From positions 1-64,000 of the forward strand of contig JAUYRZ010000125.1 in NCBI GenBank assembly GCA_030695565.1: DNA of 64,000 nucleotides, read 5' to 3'. Below, in pieces: positions 12,882-36,231 of the stretch. How positions within the stretch are numbered: the first letter of the stretch is position 1; every line of letters begins with the position of its first letter. Origin of the DNA: Archangium sp. (GTDB taxonomy: Bacteria > Myxococcota > Myxococcia > Myxococcales > Myxococcaceae). Both the position numbers and the translations under genes were made by a program. The notes beneath the pieces are model-generated. The model ran no database searches, had not been told where the DNA came from, and saw only the letters and a program-made list of their open reading frames with translations.

Positions 12882-15800
12882 CTATTTCTGCTCGAGCAAG
12901 GTGGGCACCGGCGCGAACACGCAGCCGCGCATGGTGGTCAGCTCGCCCGTGTTCAGCTTGAGCGAGACCGGCTCGCAGGTGGTGCCGTTGGGGCAGCTCG
13001 CGTCGCTGCAGCACACGTCGACGCAGATGTTCCGCGTCTTCTCGCACAACCCGCTGCGGCACTCGGAGTTGGCCGTACACGCCGCGCCCGACACGCGCAC
13101 CGCCGCCGACGGCACGCAGGCCGGCAGCACCGAGACGATCGACGACGTGCCGCTGGTGTAGCCGGTGGCCGACTTCGGGCCCGCGATGGTGCACGACGAG
13201 CCGCCCGCGCAGTCGCTGTTCGCGCAACACGGCTCGATGCAGCGGCCGTTGAAGCAGGCGTCAGGTCCCGCCCGGCACTCCGCGCCCGTGCAGGTCTGCC
13301 CGGTGGTCTTCACCGCGGTGATCAACGAGTCGAGCCGGCAGGCCGACCAGAAGTAGTTGCCGATGGTGAAAGGCCCGCTGGTGAGCGGATCCTTGCGCAC
13401 CGTGCAGGTGGTGGGGCCGCTGCAGCCACTCTCATGCGTGCACTTGTCGGTGCAGTAGCGCGCCGCGCCGTCGAGCACGCAGTCACCGCTCCGGCACTCG
13501 GAGGGCGCGGTGCACGCCTGTCCGGTGGTCTTGGTGCCGATGGTGAGCACCGAACACAGGTGCAGGTTCGCCGAGTCGATCAGGTTGCGGAAGCAGCCTT
13601 CGTTCGCCTGGCAGCTGTCGTTCAAGCCGCCACCCGTCGTCTGGTTGCAGAACGAGCCGCAGGTCAGCTCGCCCGTCGAGACGTTCGAGGTGCAGATGAG
13701 ATCGGGCCGGCATTGATCCGTGCCCGCTGCCCACCGGGTCCAGCTGTTGCCCTGCTTGACGCCGCAGCGCTCCGACACGCCGCAGTTGTCCACCGTGTTC
13801 CGGTTGCAGTCGTTGTCCTTGCCGTCACACACCTCGGCGCGGTTCGGAGAGATCGTCGCGTCGTTGTCGTTGCAGTCACCGGCACACTGCGTGACCCCAT
13901 CTCCGTCGCGGTCGTTCGTGGTGCACGAGCAGGTCTCGTCGGGGTAGCCGTTGCAGTTGTCATCCACCCCGTTGGCCGTGTTGGGCGTGGCCATGTTTCC
14001 GCAGTCCGCCGTCTTGAGCGGGAAGATGAAGGCGTTGGCGTCGTTGCAATCACGCCGGAGCGGGTCGACCCCGCCGGTGGCCACCGTGCCGCAGGTGGTG
14101 AAGCCGTCGGAGTCGAGATCGAACCCCTCGTCGCGCAACATGTCGCAGTCGTCGTCCTTGCCGTTGCAGGTCTCCATCGCACCGGGGCGGATGGTGCCGT
14201 CGCCGTCGTTGCAGTCCACGCACTCGTTGGCACCGTCGAAGTCGCGATCGATCGCCGCGTTGCAGCCGCAGGCCATCGGATCGTCCACCGTGCCGTTGCA
14301 GTTCTCGTCGAGCCCGTTGTTGCAGACCTCGGCGGCAGGCATCACCGTCTGCTGGCAGCTCACGGCGCCGCTGACGCACTGAGAGGCGCCCGTCGCGCAG
14401 AGCCCCGGCCGGCCCGTGGCGCAGCTGGTGCCCTGCTGCGGAAAGGTCTCGTCGGTCTGCCCATCACAGTCGTCGTCGATCGCGTTGCACACCTCGGTGG
14501 AGGTGGGCCCTGGCGAGCAGGTCTGCGTCGCGCCGTTCGCGCACGCCGCGATCGAGTTGACGCACGCACCCACGCCGCAGGTCAGCGTGCCCAGGCCATC
14601 GTCGACCACGCCGTCACAGTCGTCGTCGAGGCCGTTGCAGCTCTCGGTGCCCGGCGTTCCAGCGGTGCAGCTCTGCGCTGCGCCGCCCTGGCAGTTCTGC
14701 ACCGTGCGCACGCACGCGCCCACGCCGCACATGGTCTGGCCCAGGCTCTCGTCGGCCTGGCCATCGCAGTCATCGTCGAGGCCGTTGCAGGTCTCGGTGG
14801 CGCCCACCACCTGGCCGGTGCACGCCGCCCACTGGCCGGCCACGCACGACTGTGAACCCGCGCGGCAGGTGCCCACGCCCTGGGTGCCCGGGGCGCCGGT
14901 GTAACAACCCTGGGTCTGGCCGGTGGTGCACGCGCAGGTCTCGTCGATCAACCCGTCGCAGTCGTCGTCGACCATGTTGCACGCTTCGGCCTGCGGCTGA
15001 CCCGGCACACAAGCGGTGGCCATGCCGTTGGTGCACGCGTCGACGGTGCGGCTGCACTGGCCCAGGCCGCAGCTGGTCTGGCCCAGCCCTTCGTCGGGGG
15101 TGCCGTCACAGTCGTCGTCCGCGCCGTTGCACAGCTCGGCCGTCGGCATGCCCGGCGTGCAGCTCTGCGGCATGCCGTTGAAGCAGGCCACCACCGAACG
15201 CGCGCACGCGCCCACGCCGCACACCAGGTTGGCCAGGCCATCGTCCGTCTGGCCGTTGCAGTCGTTGTCGCGGCCATCACACACCTCCGTCGAGGCCGTG
15301 CCGGGCGTACAGGTCAACGACACGCCGCCCACGCAGGTATCAATCGTGCGTGCGCACTCGCCCACGCCGCACGACTGGGTGGTGAAGCCGTCGTCGACCT
15401 GCCCATCACAATCGTCATCGAGGCCGTTGCAGAGCTCGCTCACCGCGTCGACCGCGCCCACGCAGGCGCCGAACCGCGGCACGCCGTCGATCACCACGCA
15501 GGTCTGCACGCCCAGGCGGCACTCACCCAGCTTCGAGCTGCCGCACGACTGCGTCTCCCCTTCGAGGCAATCGCCCACCACGCCGCTGTCGATCGGCTCG
15601 GTGCCCGCGTCGGTCTGATCAGGAACGCAGAGCCCCGCGCTGCGCAGGCACCGTTCGCCCATCGGGCATTGTTCATCCGTGGTGCAACCGGTCGCGCCAT
15701 CGAGCCCGCCGTTCACCGGCAGCTGACAACGCCCGTCGCTGCACACCTCGCCCAGCGCGCAGTCGGCTTCGACCGAACACTCGGGCACCAGCAACATGCC

Positions 15801-15905
15801 TCCGTCTTCCAGCTGCACCGGTGGCGGGCGGCAGCTGCAGCCAGCCCCTGCCACTCCTACCGACGAAAGGAGGAGCAGCAGGGTGAAGCGGAGGCGTGAC
15901 TGCAT
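12882..15905 (-). CDS. Cys-rich lipoprotein with MopE-like metal-binding repeats
   Basis: This 1007-residue protein has a lipobox signal (VGVAGAGC, lipidated Cys near residue 23). From about residue 155 it carries roughly eleven copies of a C-N-G-x-D-D-D-C-D-G-x-x-D-[DE] motif, about 55 residues apart in the first half, each followed by a CGVGAC segment. This motif belongs to the 'putative metal-binding' family named after MopE of Methylococcus, and the Asp-rich loops are Ca-binding-like. Later parts hold DRDGDGVTQC/DCNDNDATI loops typical of thrombospondin type 3 repeats and a C-terminal third with many Cys pairs but no repeats. Such proteins are common on myxobacterial surfaces and their role is unknown. 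The ATG at 15905 has CGGAG upstream. It follows the Cys-rich gene at 15924-17558 after 18 bases, so the two are probably cotranscribed. Confidence 0.8.
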   Translation of the reverse strand: MQSRLRFTLLLLLSSVGVAGAGCSCRPPPVQLEDGGMLLVPECSVEADCALGEVCSDGRCQLPVNGGLDGATGCTTDEQCPMGERCLRSAGLCVPDQTDAGTEPIDSGVVGDCLEGETQSCGSSKLGECRLGVQTCVVIDGVPRFGACVGAVDAVSELCNGLDDDCDGQVDDGFTTQSCGVGECARTIDTCVGGVSLTCTPGTASTEVCDGRDNDCNGQTDDGLANLVCGVGACARSVVACFNGMPQSCTPGMPTAELCNGADDDCDGTPDEGLGQTSCGLGQCSRTVDACTNGMATACVPGQPQAEACNMVDDDCDGLIDETCACTTGQTQGCYTGAPGTQGVGTCRAGSQSCVAGQWAACTGQVVGATETCNGLDDDCDGQADESLGQTMCGVGACVRTVQNCQGGAAQSCTAGTPGTESCNGLDDDCDGVVDDGLGTLTCGVGACVNSIAACANGATQTCSPGPTSTEVCNAIDDDCDGQTDETFPQQGTSCATGRPGLCATGASQCVSGAVSCQQTVMPAAEVCNNGLDENCNGTVDDPMACGCNAAIDRDFDGANECVDCNDGDGTIRPGAMETCNGKDDDCDMLRDEGFDLDSDGFTTCGTVATGGVDPLRRDCNDANAFIFPLKTADCGNMATPNTANGVDDNCNGYPDETCSCTTNDRDGDGVTQCAGDCNDNDATISPNRAEVCDGKDNDCNRNTVDNCGVSERCGVKQGNSWTRWAAGTDQCRPDLICTSNVSTGELTCGSFCNQTTGGGLNDSCQANEGCFRNLIDSANLHLCSVLTIGTKTTGQACTAPSECRSGDCVLDGAARYCTDKCTHESGCSGPTTCTVRKDPLTSGPFTIGNYFWSACRLDSLITAVKTTGQTCTGAECRAGPDACFNGRCIEPCCANSDCAGGSSCTIAGPKSATGYTSGTSSIVSVLPACVPSAAVRVSGAACTANSECRSGLCEKTRNICVDVCCSDASCPNGTTCEPVSLKLNTGELTTMRGCVFAPVPTLLEQK

Positions 15906-15923: not shown

Positions 15924-17558
15924 TTAGTTGATCGGCACGGTGCAGGTGCAGGCGCCCGTCGCGCCGCAGGTGGTCAGCTGCGAGGTGAGGCAGGAGAGAC
16001 CCGAGCAGCACGAGGTGCCACCCGCCGAGCAGGTCTGACCCGAACCGACGCACGCCGCGCCCTGGCAGGTGCCGAACTCGGCGCCCGCGGGGATGTTGCA
16101 GGTCGAGCCGCTGCAGCAGTCGGACGACGCCGTGCAGATGGCGCCGATGCCCTGGCAGATGACCGGCGTGCCGCAGGTGCCGTTGGTGCAGATCTGCGAG
16201 CAGCAGTCGTTCGAGAAGGCGCAGCTCAGGCCGTTCGCGCGGCACAGCGGCCCGGCGTCGACCACGCCCGCGTCGATGACGCCGCCGTCCACCGGAACCT
16301 CTTCGAAGGGCCGGCACACCCCGCTCACGCAGAAGGCGCCGCCGCAGCAGTTCGCGTCGGTGGTGCAGGTGTTACCCAGCGGCGCGCAGCTGGGGGTCTG
16401 GCAGCGCAGCACACCACCGTCACCGGGCAGACAGAGCGCGTCGTTGCAGCACTGGTCGCGGAACTGGCAGATGTCGCCCAGCGGAATGCAGCAGCCCGCC
16501 TCACCCGTGTAGCCCGTGGGGCAGTTGCCCGACGCGCCGCCGTAGCAGCGCGGAATGCCCGACGAGTCGAGCTTGCAGACGTTCTTCATGCCGTTGCAGC
16601 AGTTCTGCGAGGCGTTGATCATCACCTCGCCACCGTCGGGCAGGGGCGCCGCGCCGCAGATGTTGCCCACGCCGTTACACGACTGGCCGTTGTCGCAGCG
16701 GCCGCCCGAGCAGGTCACCGAGCCGTTGGGGTTCACCCCGCCGCCGCAGCACGCGTCGTCACCCGAGCACGAGGTGCCGGTGAGCCGGCAGCCGCCCGCG
16801 GGCAGACACACCGTGGCACCTGAGCCGGGGTCGAAGCAGGTGCGCGAGCAGCAACCGCTGCCGCCGCTGCAGGGGTTGCCTTCCTGCGTGCAGCCGCCGC
16901 CGCCACCGCCGGTGATGGTGAGGCAGTAGCCCACGCCGCCGTCGTTCACGCTGCACGCGCGGCCGCAGCAGTCGGCGTTGGCGCTGCACCGGTCGCCGTT
17001 GGGCTGGCAGTAGTAGGCCTTCGCGCAGTGGCCCGAGTTGCACAACGTGGAGCAGCACTCGCCGTTGCCGGCACAGGCGTCACCCAGCACCTTGCACGCC
17101 CCGCCGCCCGGAATCGGCGCGCAGGTGTTGGCGTTGCACACGCCGGTGCAGCACTCGCCGGGGTTCTGACAGGCCTGGCCGGTGGCCACGCAGGCCGCGG
17201 TCGCGCACTGGCCCGAGACGCAGTTGGCGTTGCAGCAGTCGGTGTCGATGGTGCACGCAGCGCCGGGATCTCGGCAGAAGGTCGACGAGGTGCAGACCGA
17301 ACCGCTGCACGTGCCCGCGCAGCACGGCTCGGTGGTGCTGCAGGGATCGCCCGCGGCCACGCACATTCCGGCGTCAGGGAGCACGCCTCCGCCACCACCC
17401 GTTCCCGTGCCACCGCCCGTCGCCGTGCCCCCACCTGTCGCGGTGCCACCACCCGTGTCGCCACCACCCGTTCCCGAGTCTCCATTGCCGTTGGTGGGAC
17501 ACTGACAGCCGCCGATGATCAGCACGGCAAAGGACGCGAGCAGGACTTGTTTGAACAT
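15924..17558 (-). CDS. Lipoprotein with tandem knottin-like CC repeats
   Basis: The 544-residue product starts at the ATG at 17558, giving a lipobox (VLIIGGC, lipidated Cys18) and GAGGCT upstream. A Gly/Thr linker with GGGTAT repeats follows (about residues 27-55). The remainder consists of about a dozen Cys-rich units of 28-40 residues with the spacing C-x5/6-C-x5-C-C-x3/4-C-x4-C (for example GDACAGNGECCSTLCNSGHC), which resembles inhibitor-cystine-knot or Dickkopf-like disulfide frameworks. The protein must be oxidised outside the cytoplasm. I see no catalytic site. It may be a rigid surface spacer, a protease-resistant coat, or a toxin-like array. It heads a two-gene unit with the MopE-like lipoprotein 18 bases downstream. 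Confidence 0.8.
   Translation of the reverse strand: MFKQVLLASFAVLIIGGCQCPTNGNGDSGTGGGDTGGGTATGGGTATGGGTGTGGGGGVLPDAGMCVAAGDPCSTTEPCCAGTCSGSVCTSSTFCRDPGAACTIDTDCCNANCVSGQCATAACVATGQACQNPGECCTGVCNANTCAPIPGGGACKVLGDACAGNGECCSTLCNSGHCAKAYYCQPNGDRCSANADCCGRACSVNDGGVGYCLTITGGGGGGCTQEGNPCSGGSGCCSRTCFDPGSGATVCLPAGGCRLTGTSCSGDDACCGGGVNPNGSVTCSGGRCDNGQSCNGVGNICGAAPLPDGGEVMINASQNCCNGMKNVCKLDSSGIPRCYGGASGNCPTGYTGEAGCCIPLGDICQFRDQCCNDALCLPGDGGVLRCQTPSCAPLGNTCTTDANCCGGAFCVSGVCRPFEEVPVDGGVIDAGVVDAGPLCRANGLSCAFSNDCCSQICTNGTCGTPVICQGIGAICTASSDCCSGSTCNIPAGAEFGTCQGAACVGSGQTCSAGGTSCCSGLSCLTSQLTTCGATGACTCTVPIN
17391..17478. repeat. Coding minisatellite for the Gly/Thr linker
   Basis: Imperfect units of 18-21 bases built on CCACCCGTCGCCGTGCC encode the GGGTATGGGTGT linker of the knottin-like lipoprotein. 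Such tracts vary in copy number by slippage. Confidence 0.55.
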
Positions 17559-17933
17559 GGAGCCTCGTTCAGTTCGATACATCGGGGTGCTGGGCTGGGG
17601 TCGACAGAATGAAGCTCGCGGGGAATTGATCAAGTTGCCGTCGCGCCTTCATCAGGGTGCAGAGAGGGAAAATGACGCCACGGTGGGCGGGGGCTGGGCC
17701 ACCCCAATGGCAGTGGCCACGCCCACCGTGACATCGGAAAAAACAGGGTCATGCGCGCGCGCGGAGTGAGCAGTTTACGTGCCGGTTCCCGCTCACAGCA
17801 GGGCGACGCCGCTGGCGGATGTGGGCCTGTACCGGGCGGTACACTCGGGTGCCCCGCTGGGTTCAGTACTCCTCGCGAACCGTGAGTCGACTGGCCTTTG
17901 GGTGCGGCATGCGATGTGCTCTGTCGACTTCGC
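17559..17933. other. Divergent intergenic region, no gene seen
   Basis: These 375 bases separate the leftward Cys-rich lipoprotein operon from the rightward envelope/kinase operon. No convincing reading frame was found. The only notable structure is the bipartite inverted repeat at 17679-17730. Promoters for both directions must be here, but I could not assign -35/-10 boxes. Confidence 0.5.
17679..17730. repeat. Bipartite inverted repeat in a divergent promoter region
   Basis: CACGGTGGGCG (17679-17689) pairs perfectly with CGCCCACCGTG (17720-17730), and an inner GGCCAC (17697-17702) pairs with GTGGCC (17713-17718). It is 121 bases from the leftward start codon and 204 from the rightward one. 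It may be an operator or a cruciform. No T-run argues for a terminator. Confidence 0.5.
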
Positions 17934-23484: not shown

Positions 23485-25845
23485 ATGCGTCAACAGGTCG
23501 TCGTCGGATTCATCGTTGCGTGTCTCATGGCCCAGGGCGCACGCGCAGACACCTTCGCCCCGGGGTCGCTCATCATCCCCATGGACAACACCTACCAGGA
23601 CAACGGCGCGCTGCGCGCCTATGGCCTCGTGTACTCGCTGCTGCGGCAGGGTGTCCCCGTGCGGTGGTGCATCGCGCCGGGCAAAACGTTTCAGGGCGTC
23701 GACTTCATGGCCAGCGCGATGGATCGCCAGACCGACGCCGGCATCACCAACTACGGCTACCGGGCGGGGCCCTTCGTCATCGACGCGACGAACGCCGCGG
23801 CGGCGACCCCCATCGTCGCCGCCTGGCAGAGCGCCAACCCCAACGTGAAGGTGCACGTCGCCACAGCGACCTTCACCTCGACCGTCGCGCGCTACCTCGT
23901 CGCCGCACCCAAGATCGCGATGCACGCTGACGGGAACGAGCCCATCGCCCGGGCCTACCTGCAGGCCGCGGGCATTCCCGACTCGACGCTCGACCCCACC
24001 TGGCCCAACAGCTCACCTGACATGCTCACGCCACTGCAGGTTGTCGGCCCGACGACGTCGAGCAGCCGCGACGGGCGCCTGTTCGATTCGAGCGGTAACC
24101 CCGCCTACTGCCAGTTCATGTCGATGCACTACAACGTCACGTCTGCTCTCGCGAACCCCGGGGTGGTGGCGGAGGTCAGGCAGTTCCTCACGCACCCCAC
24201 GCATTTCTTCGCCGAGTGTCAGGCGGTCAACGCGTTCGAGAACACGCCTGGGGGCTTCTTCCTGACGACGACTGGCTTCGAGGTGAAGGCCAAGCCCACC
24301 CTCATCGACAATCACAACTTTGATTCGACCTTCGCCCAGTACGACGGGACCTTTGGAACCGTAGGGGGCAGTGAGCCTGCCTACGCGCTGCCCGACGGAG
24401 GCGCGTACAAGAGCGGCGGCGTCACGATGATCACCAACCGCGGCTTCGCTCCCGGAACCTGGGACCTGTGGATGACGGGTTACCTCGACGGCGCCTGCCC
24501 TCCTGATGCCGAGGTCTGCGGAACCTTCGGCAAGGTGAGCTACCTCGGCGGGCATCAGTACTCCACCAACCTGCCGATGTCGGCCAACCCGACCTCGCAG
24601 GGGGTTCGGCTCTTCCTCAACTCCATCTTCGATTCGACCTGCGCGCTCGCGAGCGGACAACCCATCATCGACGTCACCAAGAGCGGCCCCGCCACCAGCA
24701 CCTCGTCGACCGTGACCTTCACCCTGGCCTACAGCAACACAGGAATGAGCGTCGCCATGGGGGCCTCCCTTACAGATCCCCTTCCCGCCGGGGCCTCGTT
24801 CGTCTCGGCGACTGCGGGCGGCACGTTCGCGAACGGTACGGTGACCTGGAACCTCGGCAGCATCGGCATGGCGCAGTCTGGGAGTGTCTCGGTGACGGTG
24901 ATGCTGGCCAGCCCGGGGAGCTACGCCAACACCGCCACGCTCGCCTATCGAGTCGGGCTCAGCGGCCGCACCCAGCAATCGAACACAGCGACGGTGTTGT
25001 ACGGCCCCGATACCGACGGGGACGGCGTGCTCGATTCGGTCGACAACTGCCCTGCGGTGGCCAACCCGATGCAGAGCCTGACCTCCGATGCGCTGACTTG
25101 CGGGAGCTGCACGACGGCTTGTTCGACTCCTCAAGCCACCCCCAGCTGCCAGGCGGGCATGTGTGGGATCGCCACGTGCGGTAACGGGTTCAGCAACTGT
25201 GACGGGCTGGCCAACAACGGCTGCGAATATGCCAACGCAGGGTTCGCGACGGATCTGAACAACTGTGGCGGGTGCAGGATCGCGTGCGCCCCAGTCAACG
25301 CGACCGGCCAGTGCAGCGCCTCGACGTGCAGCATCAGCGCGTGCAGCACAGGTTTTCTCGATGCAGACAGGGTGGCCGCGAACGGGTGCGAGCGGGCGTG
25401 CAGCGCGAGGGAAGATGCTGCTCAGTGTTCTGATGGCATCGACAACGACTGCGACGGCCTGACCGACGCGCTCGACCCTGATTGCCAGAGTCCTGATGGC
25501 GGCGCTGGCGGCGCTGGCGGCGGCTCAGGCGCTGGCGGTGGAGGCGGCTCGGGTACCGGCACCGGCGGAAGCACGGGCACCGGCGGAAGCATGGGCACTG
25601 GTGGAAGCACGGGCACTGGTGGAAGCACGGGCACTGGTGGTGGGGCGGGTACCGGCGGCGCTCTCGGAAGCGAGGCGGGGGATTCTCCGGACGCCGGCGG
25701 TCCCGAGGGCCAACGAGCCAAGGGCTGTGGGTGCGGGTCGGGCGCAGAAGGTTCCTCGCTCCTGACGCTGGCGCTCCTGTTGGGGGGCGCAGCACGGCGC
25801 CGGCGCGCAACGCGGGTCTCGAACGTCGAGGGGCACCCTGAGTGA
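23485..25845 (+). CDS. MYXO-CTERM surface protein with DUF11, TSP3 and MopE-like modules
   Basis: The 786-residue product has GGAAGG seven bases before ATG and a signal peptide (VGFIVACLMAQGARA). Residues 25-390 form a large unidentified N-terminal domain (MDNTYQDNGALRAYGLVYSL). A DUF11-type beta module follows (VTKSGPATSTSSTVTFTLAY, about 395-505). Next come a thrombospondin-3-like DTDGDGVLDSVDNCP, Cys-rich stretches, and a MopE-like CSDGIDNDCDGLTD. A Gly/Thr/Ser linker of GSTGTG repeats (about 675-735) leads to the C-terminal sorting signal: KGCGCGSG, the hydrophobic LLTLALLLGG, then RRRR. This is the MYXO-CTERM signal, known to be recognised by the myxosortase system and tied to lipidation or cell-surface anchoring. 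The N-terminal domain could be an enzyme but I see no catalytic motif. Confidence 0.85.
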   Translation: MRQQVVVGFIVACLMAQGARADTFAPGSLIIPMDNTYQDNGALRAYGLVYSLLRQGVPVRWCIAPGKTFQGVDFMASAMDRQTDAGITNYGYRAGPFVIDATNAAAATPIVAAWQSANPNVKVHVATATFTSTVARYLVAAPKIAMHADGNEPIARAYLQAAGIPDSTLDPTWPNSSPDMLTPLQVVGPTTSSSRDGRLFDSSGNPAYCQFMSMHYNVTSALANPGVVAEVRQFLTHPTHFFAECQAVNAFENTPGGFFLTTTGFEVKAKPTLIDNHNFDSTFAQYDGTFGTVGGSEPAYALPDGGAYKSGGVTMITNRGFAPGTWDLWMTGYLDGACPPDAEVCGTFGKVSYLGGHQYSTNLPMSANPTSQGVRLFLNSIFDSTCALASGQPIIDVTKSGPATSTSSTVTFTLAYSNTGMSVAMGASLTDPLPAGASFVSATAGGTFANGTVTWNLGSIGMAQSGSVSVTVMLASPGSYANTATLAYRVGLSGRTQQSNTATVLYGPDTDGDGVLDSVDNCPAVANPMQSLTSDALTCGSCTTACSTPQATPSCQAGMCGIATCGNGFSNCDGLANNGCEYANAGFATDLNNCGGCRIACAPVNATGQCSASTCSISACSTGFLDADRVAANGCERACSAREDAAQCSDGIDNDCDGLTDALDPDCQSPDGGAGGAGGGSGAGGGGGSGTGTGGSTGTGGSMGTGGSTGTGGSTGTGGGAGTGGALGSEAGDSPDAGGPEGQRAKGCGCGSGAEGSSLLTLALLLGGAARRRRATRVSNVEGHPE
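25561..25650 (+). repeat. Coding minisatellite, 18-base unit
   Basis: Four full units of the form ACYGGYGGAAGCAYGGGC (25561, 25579, 25597, 25615) and a divergent fifth encode GSTGTG in the linker of the MYXO-CTERM protein. Units three and four are identical, indicating recent expansion. Confidence 0.75.
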
Positions 25846-27528: not shown

Positions 27529-27653
27529 CGTTCGCAAAAAGCAGGGGTCGAAGCCGTGGGCGCGGTCGGCCGCAGCCGGGGCAGCGTCTCCAACCGGTAA
27601 CGGCGAAGCCGTCGGCTCCCAGCCCCGCGAGGCCCACGCTACGCTGAGTGCTG

Positions 27654-28166
27654 ATGTCGACTCCGCACACCGCCTCCGCCTTCATGCTCTCGCTCCTCGG
27701 TCGCCAGCATCAGCTGCTGGGGGCGCGGTTCTTCGAACGGTACGCCTCTGATTGGTTGGTCTGGGAGCCGGGACCCTGGCGTCCGGCCCGGTCGATTCTC
27801 ACCAGCAACACCGAAGCGACGCAGCTCCCCAACGCGGCGCAGCCGGCCCGGCCCGTGGGCGAAGACGCGCTGTGTTTCGAGCTCAAGCAGGTCGAGAACG
27901 CGGTGATGGCCGTCGGCCGCGGCAGTGAGAATCACATCGTCATCAACGATCTCACCGTCTCGCGTGAGCAGTTCGCCCTCGAGTTCAGCAACAAGGCGTG
28001 GAAGGTGCGCAGCCGGGGCACGCCGCTGTCCGTCGATGGCGCGCCGGTGAATGAAGAAGGGGTGGCGCTGAAGAACGCCTCGGTGATTCTGGTGGGCGAC
28101 GTGCGCTTGACCTTCTACACGCCCGAAGGTTTTCCCCGCCGGCTCGAGCAAGAAGGCACGAAGTAG
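27654..28166 (+). CDS. FHA-domain protein
   Basis: This 170-residue protein contains one forkhead-associated domain at about residues 75-155, with the signature VGRGSENHIVIND, then LTVSREQFALE, in which Arg, Ser and the Asn-rich turn would bind phosphothreonine. The usual His of SxxH is Gln here. Residues 1-70 hold no known domain. FHA proteins read the output of Ser/Thr kinases; the PEGA-type kinase at 30740-32089 is 2.6 kb away and is a plausible partner by proximity only. The ATG at 27654 was chosen over GTG at 27648. The gene converges on the Cys-rich lipoprotein gene with a repeat hairpin between. Confidence 0.85.
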   Translation: MSTPHTASAFMLSLLGRQHQLLGARFFERYASDWLVWEPGPWRPARSILTSNTEATQLPNAAQPARPVGEDALCFELKQVENAVMAVGRGSENHIVINDLTVSREQFALEFSNKAWKVRSRGTPLSVDGAPVNEEGVALKNASVILVGDVRLTFYTPEGFPRRLEQEGTK

Positions 28167-28172
28167 AGTTCC

Positions 28173-28213
28173 CCTCTCCCTCTGGGCCCTCTGGGAGAGG
28201 GTCAGGGTGAGGG
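28173..28213. repeat. Dispersed hairpin repeat, copy between convergent genes
   Basis: CCTCTCCC and GGGAGAGG flank CTCTGGGCCCT, followed by GTCAGGGTGAGGG, the reverse complement of the repeat's CCCTCACCC flank. It lies seven bases after the FHA gene stop and 15 bases before the stop of the convergent Cys-rich gene, so it would terminate transcripts from both sides. Confidence 0.65.
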
Positions 28214-28228
28214 CCTCGAGTCGAGTCC

Positions 28229-30100
28229 CTACTGACAGGCCCCGCTCGAACACTGCATCGAGCCGCTGCAGTTCACACACGCGCCGCCATCACGCCCGCA
28301 GGCATTCTTCATCGCGCCGCCCATGCACTGATTGGCGACGGTGCAGCACCCCGCGCAGGTCGCGCCGTCGCACACGCAGGTGCCACCCATGCAGCGCAGC
28401 CCCGCGCCGCAGGCATTTCCGGTCCCGCATCCGCAGGTGCCGCCGGCCTTGCAGGTGTCGGCCTTGAGCGGATCACACACGGTGCACATGCCGCCCGCCG
28501 GGCCGCACGCGGTCGCGCTGCGCGGCTGACACACGCCCGCTTCACAACAACCGCCAGGGCAGGTGGCCGCCGTACACGCAGAAGGCCCACAGGTGCCGGC
28601 ATCACAGGTGCCGCTGCTGCACTGCACGCAGGTGGCGCCGCCCGTGCCGCAGCTCGTCGGGCTGGTGCCGACCTCGCAGAGGCCATTGCTGCAGCAGCCG
28701 CCAGGGCAGGTGGTGCCGTCGCAGGTCGCGGTGACGCAGCCGCCGTCCTGACAGCTGAGCGAAGTGCAGGTGGCGCAGCTCGCCCCTCCGCCGCCGCAGC
28801 TGCTGGGCGAGGTGCCCGGCTGGCAGGTGCCGCTCGAGTCGCAGCAGCCGGTGGGGCAGGTGGCGCTGCTGCAGGGGGGCGCGGTGCAGGTCTTCTGCCG
28901 GCAGCTGCCCGCGCCACAGCTCGCGCAGATGACACCGCCGGTACCGCACGTGGTGTCGGTGTTGCCGCTGCGGCACACCCCGCCCTGGCAGCAGCCGGTG
29001 GGGCAGGTGGTGGCGTCGCACTTGTTGTCGCAGCGCTGATTGGTGCAGCTGGCCGCGCACTGGGAGCACGCCACGCCGCCGGTGCCGCAGGCGCCCGCAT
29101 CCGTGCCCGCCACACAGGTGCCTTCGAAGCAGCAACCGGTGGGGCACGTCTGGGGGTTGCAGGTGTTCACGCACGCGCCCGCATCACAGGAACCCAGGCC
29201 GCATGAGAGGCAGCCCATCGCGCTCACACCACACGCGGAGTCATCGGTGCCCGTGAGGCAGCGCGAGCCCGAGCAGCACCCCGGACAGTTGGTCGCGTTG
29301 CAAGCTGAGGTGGCGCAGGTGCCGGCGGTGCACGCACTGCCCAGGCAATCCAGACACGCCCGGCCGCCGGAACCGCAGGACTGCGAGCTGGCGCCCATCA
29401 AACAACGTCCGCCCATGCAGCAGCCCGAAGGACACGAGGCGGCGGTGCACTGGCAAAGCCCGCGCAGACATTCTACGCTTGGTTCGCACGCGGGGCCGGT
29501 GCCGCACAGGCACTCACCGGTGGCGGGGTCACACTTGTCTGCGCCGATGGCGGCGGTGCAGGGCGGGCCCACGCCGCAGGCACAGCGGCCGTCGGCTCCG
29601 CAGGTGTCGGTGGTCAAGACGTCGCAGCTGCTGCAGGCGGCGCCGCCGATGCCGCACGCCGAGGCGTTGGGCGAGGTGATGCAGGTGCCGTTCGAGCAGC
29701 ACCCCTGGCAGGTGTCGCAACCTGACATCGGCGCCGCCAACAGCACGGTGACGGGACGCTCGACGCCGAGCACCACGTCCACCCGCGCGCGGCCCTCGCC
29801 CACCACCGCGCCCCTCAGCAGACCCTCGACGACAACCTCCATCGCCTGATTGGCGAGAGAATCGGCGAGCAGCACGCGCACCGAGGTGGTGCTCGCCAGC
29901 GGGCCTGCAGCGGGCTCCGGGCGCGTCTCCGGGCCGAACACCGCGGCTTGCGCCTCCGTGCCGGAGTAGCGGAGCTGATCGATCTCCAGCCCACCCGCTT
30001 CCACGGTGACCACCAACGCCGTGCCGTGCAGGCGGGTGACGTCGCGGCACGCGAGCGCGGGCAATACCAGGCACATCATCCACACCGAAAGGCGCGTCAT
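28229..30100 (-). CDS. Lipoprotein with tandem CPTGCC repeats
   Basis: The 623-residue product begins at the ATG overlapping the TPR gene's stop (ATGA). The lipobox is LVLPALAC, with lipidated Cys18. Residues 20-130 form a beta-rich domain (TALVVTVEAGGLEIDQLRYS). From about residue 135 to the end there are about nine units of 43-50 residues of the form C-x3-T-C-P-x-G-C-C-x-x-G-x-C, followed by a CGTGG..C..C segment. Roughly one residue in five or six is Cys, so it must be heavily disulfide-bonded outside the cytoplasm. No enzymatic motif is visible. It is the last gene of an operon with thioredoxin, Ser/Thr kinase and a TPR protein. It could be a surface coat protein or an array of small binding domains. 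Another repeat family from that of 15924-17558 is used, so the two are not simple duplicates. Confidence 0.8.
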   Translation of the reverse strand: MTRLSVWMMCLVLPALACRDVTRLHGTALVVTVEAGGLEIDQLRYSGTEAQAAVFGPETRPEPAAGPLASTTSVRVLLADSLANQAMEVVVEGLLRGAVVGEGRARVDVVLGVERPVTVLLAAPMSGCDTCQGCCSNGTCITSPNASACGIGGAACSSCDVLTTDTCGADGRCACGVGPPCTAAIGADKCDPATGECLCGTGPACEPSVECLRGLCQCTAASCPSGCCMGGRCLMGASSQSCGSGGRACLDCLGSACTAGTCATSACNATNCPGCCSGSRCLTGTDDSACGVSAMGCLSCGLGSCDAGACVNTCNPQTCPTGCCFEGTCVAGTDAGACGTGGVACSQCAASCTNQRCDNKCDATTCPTGCCQGGVCRSGNTDTTCGTGGVICASCGAGSCRQKTCTAPPCSSATCPTGCCDSSGTCQPGTSPSSCGGGGASCATCTSLSCQDGGCVTATCDGTTCPGGCCSNGLCEVGTSPTSCGTGGATCVQCSSGTCDAGTCGPSACTAATCPGGCCEAGVCQPRSATACGPAGGMCTVCDPLKADTCKAGGTCGCGTGNACGAGLRCMGGTCVCDGATCAGCCTVANQCMGGAMKNACGRDGGACVNCSGSMQCSSGACQ

Positions 30101-30762
30101 CGGGCGTTGATGTCTGGGAAGGTGGTCTGCACGGGCTGCGGGGCGGTGGCGACGGCGGTGACCGTCACGGCAGCACCCACGGCGACCACGCCGATGGCCG
30201 TCCAGAACCACCAGCGTTGGTAGACGGGGGGAGGCGGCGCCTCTTTCTTCAGGGCCGCTTCCAGCGAGAGCCGCCGGCCCTGCGCGTTGGCCACCTCGAG
30301 GCGCGTCTTCTCCAATTCGAGCAGGCGCTGCTGTTCGGCAGCCGCGTGCGTGCGCTCGTCTTCCAGTCGAAGGCGCTCTTCTTCTTTGCGCTGCTGCTCG
30401 GTGGTGTCGGTCTTCTGACTGGCCCGCTGCGCGTCGACCTCGGCCAGCACGTCTTCGGTGGCCTTCGCCTGGGCGGTGGGCGGGTTCGTCTCGAGGTAGC
30501 GGCGGAAGTAGAAGCTCGCTTTGTCGAGGTGGCCTGCGCGGCGGTGGCTCTGACCCAGGTTGAACAGCAGGCCGGGCGCGGCTTTCAGCTTGTAGGCCGC
30601 TTCGTACTGCTCGATGGCTTTGGCGTAGTCGCCCAGGTCGAAGGCCTTCTTGGCCTCCAGGGCCGCGGCGCGGGCGGCGGTCTCCGAAGCAGGTGCTGCC
30701 GACGCGACGCCCGACAGCAACAGCACGAGGCAGAGAACTTCAGAACGGATCAAGCACGCCAT
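30097..30762 (-). CDS. TPR protein with C-terminal membrane anchor
   Basis: The 221-residue protein starts at the ATG at 30762, giving a signal-peptide-like N-terminus (EVLCLVLLLSGVASAAP). Two TPR units follow (AKKAFDLGDYAKAIEQYEAA and GLLFNLGQSHRRAGHLDKA, about residues 35-95), then a long Glu/Arg/Gln coiled coil (about 110-165), and a membrane segment near 190-210 (WWFWTAIGVVAVGAAVTV). This layout is common next to PEGA-type kinases in myxobacteria. The gene overlaps the kinase gene by 23 bases and the lipoprotein gene by four, so the three are translated as a unit. It may assemble with the kinase's periplasmic PEGA domain. Confidence 0.8.
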   Translation of the reverse strand: MACLIRSEVLCLVLLLSGVASAAPASETAARAAALEAKKAFDLGDYAKAIEQYEAAYKLKAAPGLLFNLGQSHRRAGHLDKASFYFRRYLETNPPTAQAKATEDVLAEVDAQRASQKTDTTEQQRKEEERLRLEDERTHAAAEQQRLLELEKTRLEVANAQGRRLSLEAALKKEAPPPPVYQRWWFWTAIGVVAVGAAVTVTAVATAPQPVQTTFPDINAR

Positions 30763-32089
30763 CTTTGACGACCCTCGGCTTCTGTTTCGGAGCGACCGGC
30801 TGTAGCAGGAGCTCGAGCGATTGATCAGTCTGGAGCGACATCTCCCGCTCCACGGGCTGATACCCACCCAACTCCAGCCGCAGGCGGAGGGGCTGCTCAG
30901 CCTTCGGTTGGCGCAGCGTGAGCGGGGTGATGCCCACCACCGCGCCCGTATCGAGGCGAATGACGTTCACCTTCGCGGGCGTGGTGACGATGGAGAGGGT
31001 CACCTCGGCCGGGGCGAGGGGGGCCGGAGGCGTGATCACCACGGGCGGCGTGGGCGCCTGCACCACCGGCGCGACCATCGGAACAGGCGCGGGCCGGAAG
31101 GCGAAATAGCCGGCGATCGAAAGCAGCAGCACGCCCGCGGCCGCGGCGGCCCGCACGGCCTTCGAGGGCGAAGCGCTCTTCTCCGGGGCCTGCAGGGCGC
31201 GTTCGAGCCACGCGGAGACGGCCGCCATCGAAGGCGGGCGGCCTTCGGCGCGTTTGCTCAAGCAGCTGGAGATCAGCTCCTGAATCGACTTCGGGACGGG
31301 CTCGCCGGCCTGGGTGTGGCGGGGCAACGGCGGGGGCGGCTGGGTGATGATGTCGGCCGCCAGCTGGCCGAAGACCATCGACTCGAAGGGCGGATTGCCC
31401 GCCAGCATCTCGTAGAGGATGGTGCCCAGCGCGTAGATATCGGTGCGCGCGTCGACCTCGAGACCGGCGGCCTGCTCGGGGGCCATGTAGCGGGGCGTGC
31501 CCACCATGGTACCGGACTGGGTGTCGGCCACCCGCAAGTCGCCGCTGGTCTGGAGCAGCTTGGCCACGCCGAAGTCGAGCACCTTCACCGAGTCTTCCCG
31601 GCCCTCGCGTGAGAGGAGGAAGATGTTGTCGGGCTTGAGATCGCGGTGCACCACGTCGACCCGGTGAGCGGCGTGCAGCGCTTCGGCGATCTGCTTCCCG
31701 ATGGAGCACACCTCGGCGATGGTCAACGCCCGTTCGGCCAGCTGGGCGGCCAGGGTCTTGCCCCGCAGCAGCTCCATCACGCCGTAGACGCGCTCGGGGA
31801 AGAGCTCCTCGACGAAGTCGTGCACCTCGACGATGTGCGCGTGGTTGATCTGATTGACCAGCCGCGCCTCTTGAAGAAAGCGGGCCACCAGCGACTTGTC
31901 CTGGATGAGGTGGCCGTGCAGCACCTTGAGCGCCACCTGCCGGCCCAGCCGCTGGTGACGGCCCTGGTACACCCGCCCCATGGTGCCTTCGCCGAGCAGC
32001 TGCTCGAGCACGTAAGGCCCCAACGAGTCGCCCACCTGGAGCACAGGCGCGGCGTCTGGATCAGGTGCGGGCGGCACGACGGTCAGCAC
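30740..32089 (-). CDS. Transmembrane Ser/Thr protein kinase with PEGA domain
   Basis: The 449-residue product has the Hanks-type kinase motifs in order: glycine loop LGEGTMGRV (about residue 33), ATP-binding Lys in VALKVL, catalytic VVHRDLKPDN, metal-binding LDFGVAKL, and YMAPEQ. A short juxtamembrane region leads to a membrane helix (AAGVLLLSIAGYFAF, about 312-330) and a Pro-rich linker. A periplasmic PEGA-type beta domain ends the protein (VTLSIVTTPAKVNVIRLD ... ELGGYQPVEREM, about 355-430). I chose GTG at 32089 because GGGGGA sits six bases upstream; a TTG at 32107 would add six residues. It begins 22 bases after the thioredoxin stop and overlaps the TPR gene. Substrates are unknown. Confidence 0.88.
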   Translation of the reverse strand: MLTVVPPAPDPDAAPVLQVGDSLGPYVLEQLLGEGTMGRVYQGRHQRLGRQVALKVLHGHLIQDKSLVARFLQEARLVNQINHAHIVEVHDFVEELFPERVYGVMELLRGKTLAAQLAERALTIAEVCSIGKQIAEALHAAHRVDVVHRDLKPDNIFLLSREGREDSVKVLDFGVAKLLQTSGDLRVADTQSGTMVGTPRYMAPEQAAGLEVDARTDIYALGTILYEMLAGNPPFESMVFGQLAADIITQPPPPLPRHTQAGEPVPKSIQELISSCLSKRAEGRPPSMAAVSAWLERALQAPEKSASPSKAVRAAAAAGVLLLSIAGYFAFRPAPVPMVAPVVQAPTPPVVITPPAPLAPAEVTLSIVTTPAKVNVIRLDTGAVVGITPLTLRQPKAEQPLRLRLELGGYQPVEREMSLQTDQSLELLLQPVAPKQKPRVVKDGVLDPF

Positions 32090-32111
32090 ATCAATCCCCC
32101 GAGGCAATACC

Positions 32112-32435
32112 TTAGAGGACTTTTTGAACGGCCTCGCCCAGCTTCTGTTTGGAGACCGCGCCGGCGATCTGACCGACCACCTTGCCGCCGTTGAAGATCA
32201 GGAAATTGGGCAACGAACGCACGCCGTAGGCCTGGGCGCTGACCTGGTTCTCCTCGATGTTCACCTTGACCACCTTGAGCTTGCCCTGGTGGGTGGTGGC
32301 GAGCTCCTCGAGGGTGGGCTCCATGGCGATACACGGTGCGCACCAGGTGGCCCAGAAGTCGACCAGCACGGGAATCCTGGAGTCGAGCACTTCCGCTTTG
32401 AACTGCGCGTCGGACAGGGCGAGGGTGTTGGCCAT
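32112..32435 (-). CDS. trxA: Thioredoxin
   Basis: This is a 107-residue single-domain cytoplasmic thioredoxin of normal family length. The redox centre is WATWCAPC (Cys31 and Cys34), i.e. CAPC in place of the common CGPC, a change seen in many thioredoxins that shifts the redox potential only modestly. The cis-Pro is in VRSLPNFLIF and the Lys/Asp core residues are present (LVDFWATW). It reduces protein disulfides using thioredoxin reductase. It is the first gene of an operon with a Ser/Thr kinase, TPR protein and a Cys-rich lipoprotein, which may reflect shared redox needs or simple proximity. It is divergent from the DUF2378 gene with only 33 bases between. Confidence 0.93.
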   Translation of the reverse strand: MANTLALSDAQFKAEVLDSRIPVLVDFWATWCAPCIAMEPTLEELATTHQGKLKVVKVNIEENQVSAQAYGVRSLPNFLIFNGGKVVGQIAGAVSKQKLGEAVQKVL

Positions 32436-32468
32436 GATTCTCGTTTAGCATGCGTATGCTGCGCTCAC
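32436..32468. promoter_or_regulatory. 33-base divergent spacer with inverted repeat
   Basis: Only 33 bases separate the ATGs of trxA and the DUF2378 gene. They contain AGCAT-GCGT-ATGCT, a perfect five-base inverted repeat. The space is too short for two separate promoters, so at least one must overlap the opposite coding region or one message is leaderless. The palindrome may be a shared operator. Confidence 0.4.
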
Positions 32469-33011
32469 ATGGCCGGCGTCATCTACCGTCACACCGTCGA
32501 GGCGTTCGTGCAGCGGGTGCTGTTGCGACGCGGTTTGTTGAGCCTGGAGTTCGATCGGGAGCTCAGGGCGCTGGGGGTCGACGCGAGCCGGCCCACGGAA
32601 CTGCCCGTCGCCGTGTGGGACGCGCTGCTTCGGACCACGGCGAAGCGCTTGAGCCCGGGAAAGAGTGACGCCGATGCGCTGGACGACCTGGGCCGGGAGC
32701 AACTGCGTGGCTACACGGAAGGGCTGGTGGGCCGGGCGCTCTTGACGGTGCTGCGGTTGATCGGCCCGCGGCGCACCATGTTGCGCATGATGGAGAACTT
32801 CCGCACGGCCGACAACGTGACCGAGGTGAGGGCCAGGGAGCTCGGCCCCACGGCGATCGATCTGGAGTTCAACTCTGACTTCGACGTGCCCACCTACATC
32901 CGCGGGCTGCTCGAGGAATCGTTGGTGGTGCTGCGAGCGAAGGAGCCGAAGGTGGTGTTCAAGAAGCAGGCTTCAGGCTCGACGGTGTTCTCCGTGAGCT
33001 GGTCACCGTAG
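32469..33011 (+). CDS. DUF2378 (TIGR02265) family protein
   Basis: The 180-residue soluble protein shows the layout of the DUF2378 family, which is greatly expanded in Myxococcus and Stigmatella: an N-terminal VIYRHTVEAFVQRVLLRRG, central LGREQLRGYTEGLVGRALL, the conserved LIGPRRTMLRMMENFRTADN, and a C-terminal FNSDFDVPTYIRGLLE. Its function is unknown; the absence of signal or membrane segments indicates a cytoplasmic location. The ATG at 32469 is 33 bases from the trxA start. The family's limited taxonomic range is the strongest single marker that this DNA is from a Cystobacterineae-type myxobacterium. Confidence 0.8.
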   Translation: MAGVIYRHTVEAFVQRVLLRRGLLSLEFDRELRALGVDASRPTELPVAVWDALLRTTAKRLSPGKSDADALDDLGREQLRGYTEGLVGRALLTVLRLIGPRRTMLRMMENFRTADNVTEVRARELGPTAIDLEFNSDFDVPTYIRGLLEESLVVLRAKEPKVVFKKQASGSTVFSVSWSP

Positions 33012-33050
33012 TTCTCCCTCGCCCTGAGAAGAAGCGGGGAGAGAGGCCCA
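33012..33050. repeat. Degenerate dispersed repeat between convergent genes
   Basis: TTCTCCCTCGCCC and GCGGGGAGAGAGG form an imperfect version of the dispersed hairpin between the stops of the DUF2378 gene and the chemoreceptor gene. Confidence 0.45.
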
Positions 33051-33057
33051 CGGCGCG

Positions 33058-34671
33058 TCAACTCCGGTCGGAGACCTTGAACCGGCTGGTGACCGCGGTG
33101 AGCGCATCGACCGACGACTGGAGATCCTGCGCAATCCTCGTGGTGCGCCCCGTGGCATCCACCCCCTGCTTCACCAGGTCAGCCACGTTGCGCGCGCCCT
33201 GCACCGCCTGCTCCGACGACTGCCGCTGCTGCCGGGTGGCCACGGCGATCTGCTGAGCGGCCTCCTTCGTGCCCCGCGACAGCGACAGAATCTGGGTGAA
33301 CGCGGTCTGCGCACGTTCGGCCACGGCCATGCCGCGATCCGACGACTCCACGCCTTCTTTCGCGCGCACCACCGCCACGTCACCCGAGGCCTGCACGCTC
33401 TCCACGATGCGCCCGATGTCGCGCGCCGACTGGGCCACGTTCTCGGCGAGCTTGCGCATCTCGGCGGCCACCACCGAGAACCCGCGGCCCACTTCACCGG
33501 CCTTGGTGCCTTCGAGCGCCGCGTTGAGCGCGAGCAGATCCGACCTGTCGGCCACCTGCTTGATCACCTGCGCGATGCGGCTGACCTGCTGCACGTCGGC
33601 GTTGAGGCGGGTGATGGCGTCGGCCACTTCTTTGGCCTCGTGGCGGATCTCCGTCATGCCGCCCACCATCTCGGCCACCACCGCGCGCGCTTCGTCGACG
33701 GCCTGGTTGGTGCGCACGGCCGCCTGCTCCACCACCTCGGTGGAGCGGGTGATGCTCTCGGCGGTGCGGGACAATTCTTCGAAGGTGGCGGCGATCTGCT
33801 GCGCGTAGGCCGACTGCTGGCTGGTGACGTGGGTCTGATCGCTCGAGGCCACGTTGAGGCCCTTGGCTGCGTCACCCAGGCGGCGCGTCAAGCCGACCAT
33901 CTCGGTGACCAGGCTGCGCAGCGACTTGAGCATGTCGTTGACGGAGGCGGCCATCGACTGCACCTCGTTGGCCCCGCCCACGTCGACCTGCTGCACCGTG
34001 ATGTCGCCCGCGGCCACCTCGCGCGCCACCCGGCTGACCACCCCGAGCGGACCTGCGATGGCTCCGGAGAACACCAGCGCCAGCGTGAGCCCCAGCCCGA
34101 GCGCGGCCAGCAGCACCCAGAGGCCCACCACCTGGTTCTCCTTTTCCTGGCGGGCGAACTGCTCGAGCGAGAAGCGCACCACCATGGTGGCCTCGTAGTC
34201 TTGATCCTTCGCGGTGCAGCGCACGTCGAGCACCGCGCCGCGTTCGATCTGGCACTGGCCCTCTTCAGGCACTTCGTAGCGGCCGGGAGGCAGGTCGCCC
34301 TGCAGCTGCACGGTGCTGTCGTTCGGCTTCACCTCGAGGAACCGTTTGCCGTTCTCCCGGGTGACGCGCTCCTTGATCACCGCCAGCGAACCGAGCTGGG
34401 TGACGTTGCCGCCGGCGCGCACGCCTTCGAAGATGCCGTTGAGCTCGCTGGGCGTGGCCAGCCCGTCGCGGATGAGCCGCATGATGGGCGCGGCGTTGTT
34501 GGTGGCGAGCTGGCCGACGGAGATGGCCTGGCGCTCGAGCGCGTCACCGGCTTGCTCGTTCAAGCGGCTGGGAAAATAGATCGAGGCGAACAGCGCGACG
34601 GCGACGCAGGGCACCACCACCGCAAAGGCCGCCTGCACGCGCAGCGAAAGTCCAGACCAGAGGCTCCCCAT
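33058..34671 (-). CDS. Methyl-accepting chemotaxis protein
   Basis: This 537-residue receptor has two membrane helices (about residues 14-34 and 180-205) around a periplasmic sensor of about 145 residues. The sensor has a Cys pair (GQCQIERGAVLDVRC) that may form a disulfide. A HAMP segment (about 206-260) and a long helical signalling domain follow. The hairpin tip reads SDLLALNAALEGTKAGEVGR then GFSVVAAEMRKLAE, matching the family's highly conserved tip except that EGTKAGE replaces EAARAGE. It should signal to a CheA/CheW complex. No che genes are adjacent, so it feeds into a remote chemosensory system. There is no C-terminal CheR-binding pentapeptide. Confidence 0.92.
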   Translation of the reverse strand: MGSLWSGLSLRVQAAFAVVVPCVAVALFASIYFPSRLNEQAGDALERQAISVGQLATNNAAPIMRLIRDGLATPSELNGIFEGVRAGGNVTQLGSLAVIKERVTRENGKRFLEVKPNDSTVQLQGDLPPGRYEVPEEGQCQIERGAVLDVRCTAKDQDYEATMVVRFSLEQFARQEKENQVVGLWVLLAALGLGLTLALVFSGAIAGPLGVVSRVAREVAAGDITVQQVDVGGANEVQSMAASVNDMLKSLRSLVTEMVGLTRRLGDAAKGLNVASSDQTHVTSQQSAYAQQIAATFEELSRTAESITRSTEVVEQAAVRTNQAVDEARAVVAEMVGGMTEIRHEAKEVADAITRLNADVQQVSRIAQVIKQVADRSDLLALNAALEGTKAGEVGRGFSVVAAEMRKLAENVAQSARDIGRIVESVQASGDVAVVRAKEGVESSDRGMAVAERAQTAFTQILSLSRGTKEAAQQIAVATRQQRQSSEQAVQGARNVADLVKQGVDATGRTTRIAQDLQSSVDALTAVTSRFKVSDRS

Positions 34672-34727
34672 GGGTGCGCAGCGTCGCAGCTTCCAGACGA
34701 AAGGGTTGATCGAATTGGAGACGAGGT

Positions 34728-34751
34728 CCCCTCTCCCTCTGGCAGAGGGAA
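34728..34751. repeat. Dispersed repeat core hairpin (partial copy)
   Basis: CCCTCTCCCTCTGGCAGAGGG is the stem portion of the dispersed repeat without the CCCTCACCCC flank. It lies five bases past the stop codon of the monooxygenase gene and upstream of the chemoreceptor start. Confidence 0.5.
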
Positions 34752-34755
34752 AGAA

Positions 34756-36231
34756 TTACTTCAGCTTCACGTGGTCGAGCTCGACCGCGCTCGTGAGCTT
34801 CCGAAACGAAAACGTCGCCCCCGGCCAGAGCATCGCGTTGCGTCCGTGCACGTCGAGGTACCAGCTGTTGCAGCCCGACGCCCACACGGTCCCCGGCAGC
34901 CGTGCCTCAATGCCCGCGTTGAACGCGTGCTCGGCTTCTTCCGTGACCTCCACGCTCTTCGCGCCCGCTGCATCGAGCGCCTTCAGGTGCGCCATCGCAA
35001 ATCGGATCTGCGACTCGATCATGTAGACCATCGAGTTGTGCCCGAGCCCGGTGTTTGGCCCCATCAGCACGTACATGTTCGGAAAGCCCGGCACCGTGGT
35101 GCCCCGGTACGCGTGCAGACCTTCACTCCAGGTGGCGCCGAGGTCCCGGCCTCCGCGGCCGAGCACCTTCAAGCGCGACAGCGGCGCTGCCACGTCGAAG
35201 CCGGTGCACCAGGCGATCGCGTCACACTCCACGTGCCGCCCGTCGGGCGTCACCACGCCGGTCTCCGTGACCTCCTTCACCGCGCTGCTCTCGAGCGCGA
35301 CGTTGGGCCGGTTGAACGACGGGTAGTAGTCGTCGGAGAGCAGGATGCGTTTGCAGCCCGCGGCGTACTTCGGCGTGAGGCGCTCCTGCAGCACCGGGTC
35401 TTTCACCTGCTTGCGGATGTGCCGTTTGCCCAACCACTCGGCGGCGCGCAGCACGCGGGGCCAGCGGGTGAAGCCCAGCGCCCGGCTCTCCAGCTTCCAA
35501 TAGATGCCAGCGCGGGTGAGCTTCATCAACCACGGCGCCACGCGGTACAGCCACCGGGCCAGCCGCGAAATCGGAGCATCCGCCCGCGGCACCACCCACG
35601 CCGGCGTCCGCTGAAACAAGGTGAGCTGCTTCACGTGCGGCGCGAGGGCCGGCACCAGCTGAATCGCCGAAGCACCCGTGCCCACCACCACGATGCGTTT
35701 GCCTTCGAGCGAGACCGACTCGTCCCACGCGGCCGAGTGGAGCTGCGGCCCCTCGAACTTCTCGCGCCCCGGCACCTCGGGAAACTTCGGGTGATGCAGG
35801 GCGCCCACGCCGAGCACCAGCTGCGGCGCGCGGAAGACTTCTCCGGTCTTCGTGGTGACCTGCCACGAGCTGGTCGCTTCGTCGTACTCGCAGGTCTGCG
35901 CTTCCACGCCGAAGCGGCAATGGGCGCGCACACCGTATTGATCAGCCGTGCGCTCCAGGTAGCCGAGGATTTCTTTCTGCGGGGCGAAGTGACGTGTCCA
36001 CCCGGCGTTCTGCGCGAAGGAGAAGGAATAGAGGTGCGAAGGCACGTCGCACGCGCAGCCGGGGTAGCGGTTCTCTCGCCATGTTCCGCCGACGCCTGCG
36101 CCCTTCTCGAGCACGACGTAGCTGCGTTTGCCTTCCTGCTGGAGCGCGATGGCCATACCCAGGCCTGAGAAGCCCGAGCCCAGAATGATCACATCGGTCA
36201 ACACACCGCTCGGGATGACCGGTGAGGTCAT
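34756..36231 (-). CDS. Flavin monooxygenase of Baeyer-Villiger type
   Basis: The 491-residue enzyme has an FAD-binding GSGFSGLG (18-25), the Baeyer-Villiger fingerprint F-x-G-x3-H-x3-W-D at residues 159-170 (FEGPQLHSAAWD), and an NADP-binding GTGASAIQ (184-191). These enzymes insert oxygen next to a ketone using NADPH and O2; related members act on long-chain or cyclic ketones, and some hydroxylate other substrates. The ATG at 36231 overlaps the stop of the di-metal hydrolase-like gene by four bases (ATGA), so they are cotranscribed. A divergent AraC-type regulator at 37140 probably controls them. The substrate cannot be read from sequence. Confidence 0.85.
   Translation of the reverse strand: MTSPVIPSGVLTDVIILGSGFSGLGMAIALQQEGKRSYVVLEKGAGVGGTWRENRYPGCACDVPSHLYSFSFAQNAGWTRHFAPQKEILGYLERTADQYGVRAHCRFGVEAQTCEYDEATSSWQVTTKTGEVFRAPQLVLGVGALHHPKFPEVPGREKFEGPQLHSAAWDESVSLEGKRIVVVGTGASAIQLVPALAPHVKQLTLFQRTPAWVVPRADAPISRLARWLYRVAPWLMKLTRAGIYWKLESRALGFTRWPRVLRAAEWLGKRHIRKQVKDPVLQERLTPKYAAGCKRILLSDDYYPSFNRPNVALESSAVKEVTETGVVTPDGRHVECDAIAWCTGFDVAAPLSRLKVLGRGGRDLGATWSEGLHAYRGTTVPGFPNMYVLMGPNTGLGHNSMVYMIESQIRFAMAHLKALDAAGAKSVEVTEEAEHAFNAGIEARLPGTVWASGCNSWYLDVHGRNAMLWPGATFSFRKLTSAVELDHVKLK

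Follow-up and report, generated by a model that had tools for sequence, protein, structure and literature searches.

Eukaryotic-like kinases and secreted Cys-rich proteins are both encoded in very large numbers by myxobacteria, mostly with no stimulus or role known for them, and a locus that encodes both raises the question of whether they work together and, if so, in which direction a signal would pass between them. Such a locus is found in the window, the stretch of 64,000 nucleotides of an Archangium sp. genome (contig JAUYRZ010000125.1) that was analysed here. An earlier note, made from its letters, had read a thioredoxin, a Ser/Thr kinase, a TPR protein and a Cys-rich lipoprotein as one cotranscribed operon and as a possible redox- or envelope-responsive surface system. 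We propose, with roughly even confidence, a phylum-wide myxobacterial module for envelope signalling, in which lipoprotein and TPR protein would act on a PEGA kinase and the kinase on an FHA protein.

Gene layout and conserved gene order

The host genome comprises 8.5 Mb in 134 contigs, and its nearest relatives in the genome collection are metagenome genomes named Archangium sp. The features of the locus are as follows.

32112–32435, minus strand: thioredoxin (WCAPC, 107 aa), cytoplasmic (Pfam); judged a neighbour outside the module
30740–32089, minus strand: Hanks-type Ser/Thr kinase, 449 aa, GTG start (Pfam, motifs, hydropathy, relatives)
30097–30762, minus strand: TPR protein, 221 aa, ATG at 30762 (Pfam, hydropathy, alignment)
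28229–30100, minus strand: Cys-rich lipoprotein, 623 aa, ATG at 30100, the start overlapping the TPR stop (ATGA)
29720–30049, minus strand: N-terminal domain of the mature lipoprotein, about 110 aa (alignments, model; no accepted Pfam family)
28232–29728, minus strand: nine Cys-rich GCC-type units with 102 Cys (even Cys number per unit; model)
27648–28166, plus strand: FHA-domain protein, convergent with the operon (Pfam, conserved family, linkage)
27819–27821, plus strand: codon of Thr56 of the FHA protein (counted from ATG 27654), within its N-terminal linker; candidate phospho-acceptor, invariant in 45/45 linked copies
12882–15905 (minus), 15924–17633 (minus) and 23485–25845 (plus): further Cys-rich secreted proteins

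The layout is exactly as the earlier note had described it: thioredoxin and kinase genes are separated by 22 bases, kinase and TPR genes overlap by 23 bases, TPR and lipoprotein genes overlap in ATGA, a CAPC thioredoxin stands at the head, and an FHA gene lies nearby. This FHA gene is indeed part of the neighbourhood. The Pfam matches in the operon are Pkinase (E 3e-51), TPR_2 and Thioredoxin. A scan of positions 28000–34800 for promoters and terminators gave no promoter-like site, and terminator-like sites at chance level, which speaks neither for nor against a separate promoter.

The N-terminal domain of the lipoprotein, used on its own as query against 138 genomes from the class and 174 from the phylum, was present in 63 and 78 of them, respectively, mostly in one copy per genome. 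Since this domain was the only query, the resulting sample of loci was not selected by the kinase. Kinase and TPR genes lie directly upstream at 34 of the 64 distinct loci, the TPR gene only at seven (three at contig ends) and a different Ser/Thr kinase at eight; 15 loci, two at a contig edge and the Corallococcus copies seen among them, have neither a kinase nor a TPR gene beside them. The order kinase, TPR protein, lipoprotein was found in six families outside the class, and in most same-class loci with the lipoprotein gene behind the TPR gene the two are spaced by −4 bases (ATGA). Seen from the kinase, for which the counts over 70 distinct loci take in many related species whose genomes are not independent observations, the TPR gene adjoins at 59 loci and the convergent FHA gene at 45, the latter in Myxococcus, Corallococcus, Pyxidicoccus, Archangium and Hyalangium, which are among the cultured genera of the family.

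The genes for the kinase, the TPR protein and the Cys-rich lipoprotein thus form a real and conserved unit that is probably translationally coupled. Of the four genes that the earlier note had read as cotranscribed, these three keep their order in other genomes; the thioredoxin gene, treated below, does so in only two congeners and is no more than a candidate for cotranscription with the kinase gene.

The kinase loci of Archangium, Myxococcus and Pyxidicoccus have a Cys-rich protein upstream instead. At the M. xanthus locus there is neither an N-domain lipoprotein nor a TPR gene, and the different Cys-rich protein upstream matches NF033662. In Archangium-like genomes, a soluble kinase containing PilZ directly precedes a lipoprotein with the N-terminal domain and GCC units. 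That the lipoprotein has been relocated to this second kinase is an argument for a true association of kinase and lipoprotein. Loci with the lipoprotein behind a soluble Ser/Thr kinase were seen in Archangium-like and related genomes (L152, L154, L155, L156, L158, L159, L171, L188), with PilZ detected by Pfam in two of the three scanned.

Kinase, TPR protein and FHA protein

The cytosolic part of the kinase has the VALK, HRD, DFG and APE motifs intact, and the combination of a Pkinase domain containing Lys, HRD, DFG and APE with a membrane helix places it among the Hanks-type transmembrane Ser/Thr kinases. Hydropathy predicts a single helix (residues about 311–332), followed by a Pro-rich linker and a periplasmic PEGA-like domain. 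The PEGA domain, already named in the earlier note, was borne out: it scored 19.5 bits in the Pfam scan, just below the cut-off of 20.8, and 23.4 bits in the genome search, and four of five related kinases score above the cut-off. Stk1/PknB kinases are likewise membrane Ser/Thr kinases with an outer sensing domain, but the kinase described here has a PEGA-like domain in place of PASTA (none in the Pfam scan), has separate lipoprotein and TPR partners, and reaches 250 bits against the cut-off of 450 for that class (NF033483). The TPR protein is predicted to have a signal peptide, periplasmic TPRs, a coiled coil and a C-terminal membrane helix (residues 185–208). A second kinase-TPR pair, without a lipoprotein and with several Cys-rich proteins within about 15 kb, is present in the window's own genome (L045:16722-18594), and in another family a module kinase matches Pkinase in two stretches, which looks like the fusion of an additional kinase domain in front (L056:6823-9087).

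The family of the FHA protein is conserved in an N-terminal stretch and has a linker with one notable Thr. This linker Thr is found in 45/45 linked FHA proteins and in 17/23 unlinked copies; as a mark specific to linked proteins it was rejected, holding only in part. In OdhI and GarA, the kinase target is a Thr ahead of the FHA domain. The protein encoded in the window falls far short of the OdhI family (24.5 bits against the NF041660 cut-off of 200) and is, by analogy, comparable to OdhI and GarA in its presumed working, not in family. One congener has two tandem FHA gene copies at a contig end (L058:9438-10519), with up to 74% identity to the FHA protein of the window.

Lipoprotein domain and Cys-rich outer parts

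Besides the lipobox ALAC, the lipoprotein contains 102 further Cys, which fall into nine units of 18, 10, 10, 10, 10, 10, 10, 14 and 10 Cys, in agreement with the "about nine disulfide-rich units" first noticed. The even count in every unit fits stable disulfides closed within units. Over all lipoproteins, 39 have an even and 14 an odd number of Cys, a parity muddied by uncertain lipobox assignment. Comparison of the units with Pfam, NCBIfam and PDB sequences gave no match to a known repeat family, and the TIGR02232 and DUF4215 repeat models, which match the module members L172 and L177, do not match the lipoprotein of the window. In the structure model, the Cys region consists of short hairpins whose overall arrangement is not fixed (pTM 0.31), which would fit a string of small modules.

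The N-terminal domain, for which Pfam has no accepted family, was modelled as a seven-stranded beta-sandwich (pLDDT 93.1). The nearest solved folds are the pilotins ExsB (2yjl, Z 10.6, rmsd 2.2 over 93) and AspS (5wec, Z 8.5), which are small beta-sandwich lipoproteins as well, and a Foldseek search with the full lipoprotein model returned only the matches of this domain again. However, identity to the pilotins is 15%, the sequence matches no family and a secretin gene is absent from the surroundings. The likeness between model and pilotins may go no further than a common fold.

Two alignments showed that the domain can be aligned across all module lipoproteins, meaning those in which the lipoprotein follows the TPR gene. 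What stands behind it differs: GCC-type units in the window, CGDGxCC-type units in L129, L175, L176, L179 and L181, TIGR02232/DUF4215 repeats in L172 and L177, acidic double-disulfide repeats in L174, and Ig-like or short tails in L137 and L151. One conserved N-terminal domain thus carries Cys-rich repeats of unrelated types, and such conservation of the domain with exchange of the outer part fits a partner-binding anchor. We tentatively go one step further, with somewhat less confidence than in the module as such, to a phylum-wide receptor-kinase system: one lipoprotein domain would dock the TPR protein and the PEGA kinase, its disulfide-rich outer part would be swapped between unrelated repeat families as in receptor diversification, and the FHA protein would be the phospho-switched output.

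Proposed signal path and competing readings

In the envelope or on the surface of the cell, the lipoprotein would provide a stalk or binding surface made rigid by disulfide bonds, and in the periplasm its N-terminal domain would touch the TPR protein and the PEGA domain of the kinase. The activity of the kinase would be set by this contact or by the ligand state, and the kinase would phosphorylate the FHA protein, with the invariant Thr of the linker as the probable site; the phospho-Thr would then be bound by an FHA domain, its own or that of a partner, and the output would be switched. The signal would most likely flow from lipoprotein and TPR protein through the kinase to the FHA protein.

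The circuit as a whole would work like GlnH-GlnX-PknG-OdhI. In Corynebacterium and Mycobacterium, GlnH and GlnX control PknG, and OdhI is phosphorylated (PMC9769921, PMC8546545). Both systems, the known one taken with its GarA variant and the module as proposed here, combine an outer sensor, a membrane protein, a TPR-dependent Ser/Thr kinase and a small FHA target. However, GlnH is a solute-binding protein and not Cys-rich, and PknG is soluble with the TPRs in the same chain, whereas the module kinase spans the membrane and the TPRs are on a secreted protein of their own. Another point of comparison is TraA of Myxococcus xanthus, a surface receptor whose tandem Cys-rich repeats have been proposed to be a rigid stalk (PMC3325183). 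TraA combines a PA14 domain with TIGR04201 repeats and a MYXO-CTERM end, and has TraB as its partner and no kinase; the module lipoprotein has a lipobox anchor and another repeat type, and with no match to any Pfam or NCBIfam family it does not classify as a TraA-type receptor.

A search of the open-access literature on Myxococcus PEGA kinases, on Cys-rich lipoproteins with kinases and on kinase-TPR-lipoprotein operons of Myxococcota found nothing relevant, so the earlier suggestion of an undescribed system holds for the three-gene module within that literature. All types of part are known; no description was found there of their combination, of how deep in the phylum it reaches or of a single conserved domain on which Cys-rich outer parts are exchanged. 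The operon sets a kinase beside candidates for its outer sensor, its membrane partner and its substrate, in the last case down to a named residue, and the module has relatives in laboratory species (Myxococcus, Corallococcus, Archangium), which makes the proposal testable.

Gene linkage, domain make-up, predicted topology and Thr conservation are observed; the direction of information flow is what we infer from them, and the lipoprotein could be the output. This is the main rival: kinase and TPR protein would govern how a Cys-rich coat of the surface is made, exported or assembled, with the FHA protein as a regulatory partner. The lipoprotein gene is indeed the last in an operon with probable translational coupling, its repeats vary widely in number and type, as they do in structural surface proteins, and some genomes have the lipoprotein without the kinase. 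However, a constant domain below an exchanged outer part suits an anchor for partners better than a coat, and the kinase has an outer domain of its own that needs an input, so we consider this reading possible but rather unlikely.

Signalling from the lipoprotein to the kinase might also concern metals, with the lipoprotein as a metal-binding surface protein and the kinase reporting metal load. Copper binding is assumed for Cys-rich proteins of the MopE type, and the acidic Cys repeats (NF033662) of some module lipoproteins and of the upstream proteins in Myxococcus would suit such a role. This is improbable, however, given that the GCC-type units in the window are poor in acidic and His residues and that no metal transporter was found in the neighbourhood.

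Still less probable is a redox-responsive system headed by the thioredoxin, as the earlier note had considered. It is favoured by the gap of only 22 bases to the kinase and by the module at L151, which has a peroxiredoxin upstream and a different thioredoxin downstream. However, when the thioredoxin was searched in 26 genomes, its closest copies adjoined the kinase in only two congeners besides the window genome, across gaps of about 81 and about 50 bases, and two other congeners carry the ortholog (82–85% identical) elsewhere, without the kinase. In genome G002, a related methyl-accepting chemotaxis gene still lies near the ortholog with no kinase operon there, and the kinase operon is located on another contig behind a divergent gene. 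Any such thioredoxin is near the kinase at only 4/70 loci, L151 among them. Moreover, a sequence scan of the thioredoxin found no signal peptide and no membrane helix, which leaves it in the cytoplasm, whereas the lipoprotein is exported with Cys paired in number in each unit. As a member of the module, the thioredoxin was rejected by this distribution; it is judged to be a local neighbour outside the circuit, and once it is set aside, little remains of the redox reading.

A chance neighbourhood without function, which could be argued from the abundance of both protein classes in myxobacteria (the host genome has 54 PEGA matches), is hardly credible, since one gene order recurs across the phylum and 44/70 kinase loci have a Cys-rich neighbour, compared with 8/542 Cys-rich genes and 12/542 kinases among the background genes away from the module at the same loci.

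Two minor observations concern the surroundings of the module. At L151 (1395-4356), in another genus, peroxiredoxin, kinase, TPR protein, a lipoprotein consisting of the N-terminal domain only and a CPPC thioredoxin are encoded in one codirectional run. In the window, the three further Cys-rich secreted proteins listed above are encoded no more than 17 kb from the operon and contain 112, 85 and 29 Cys in repeats of other types.
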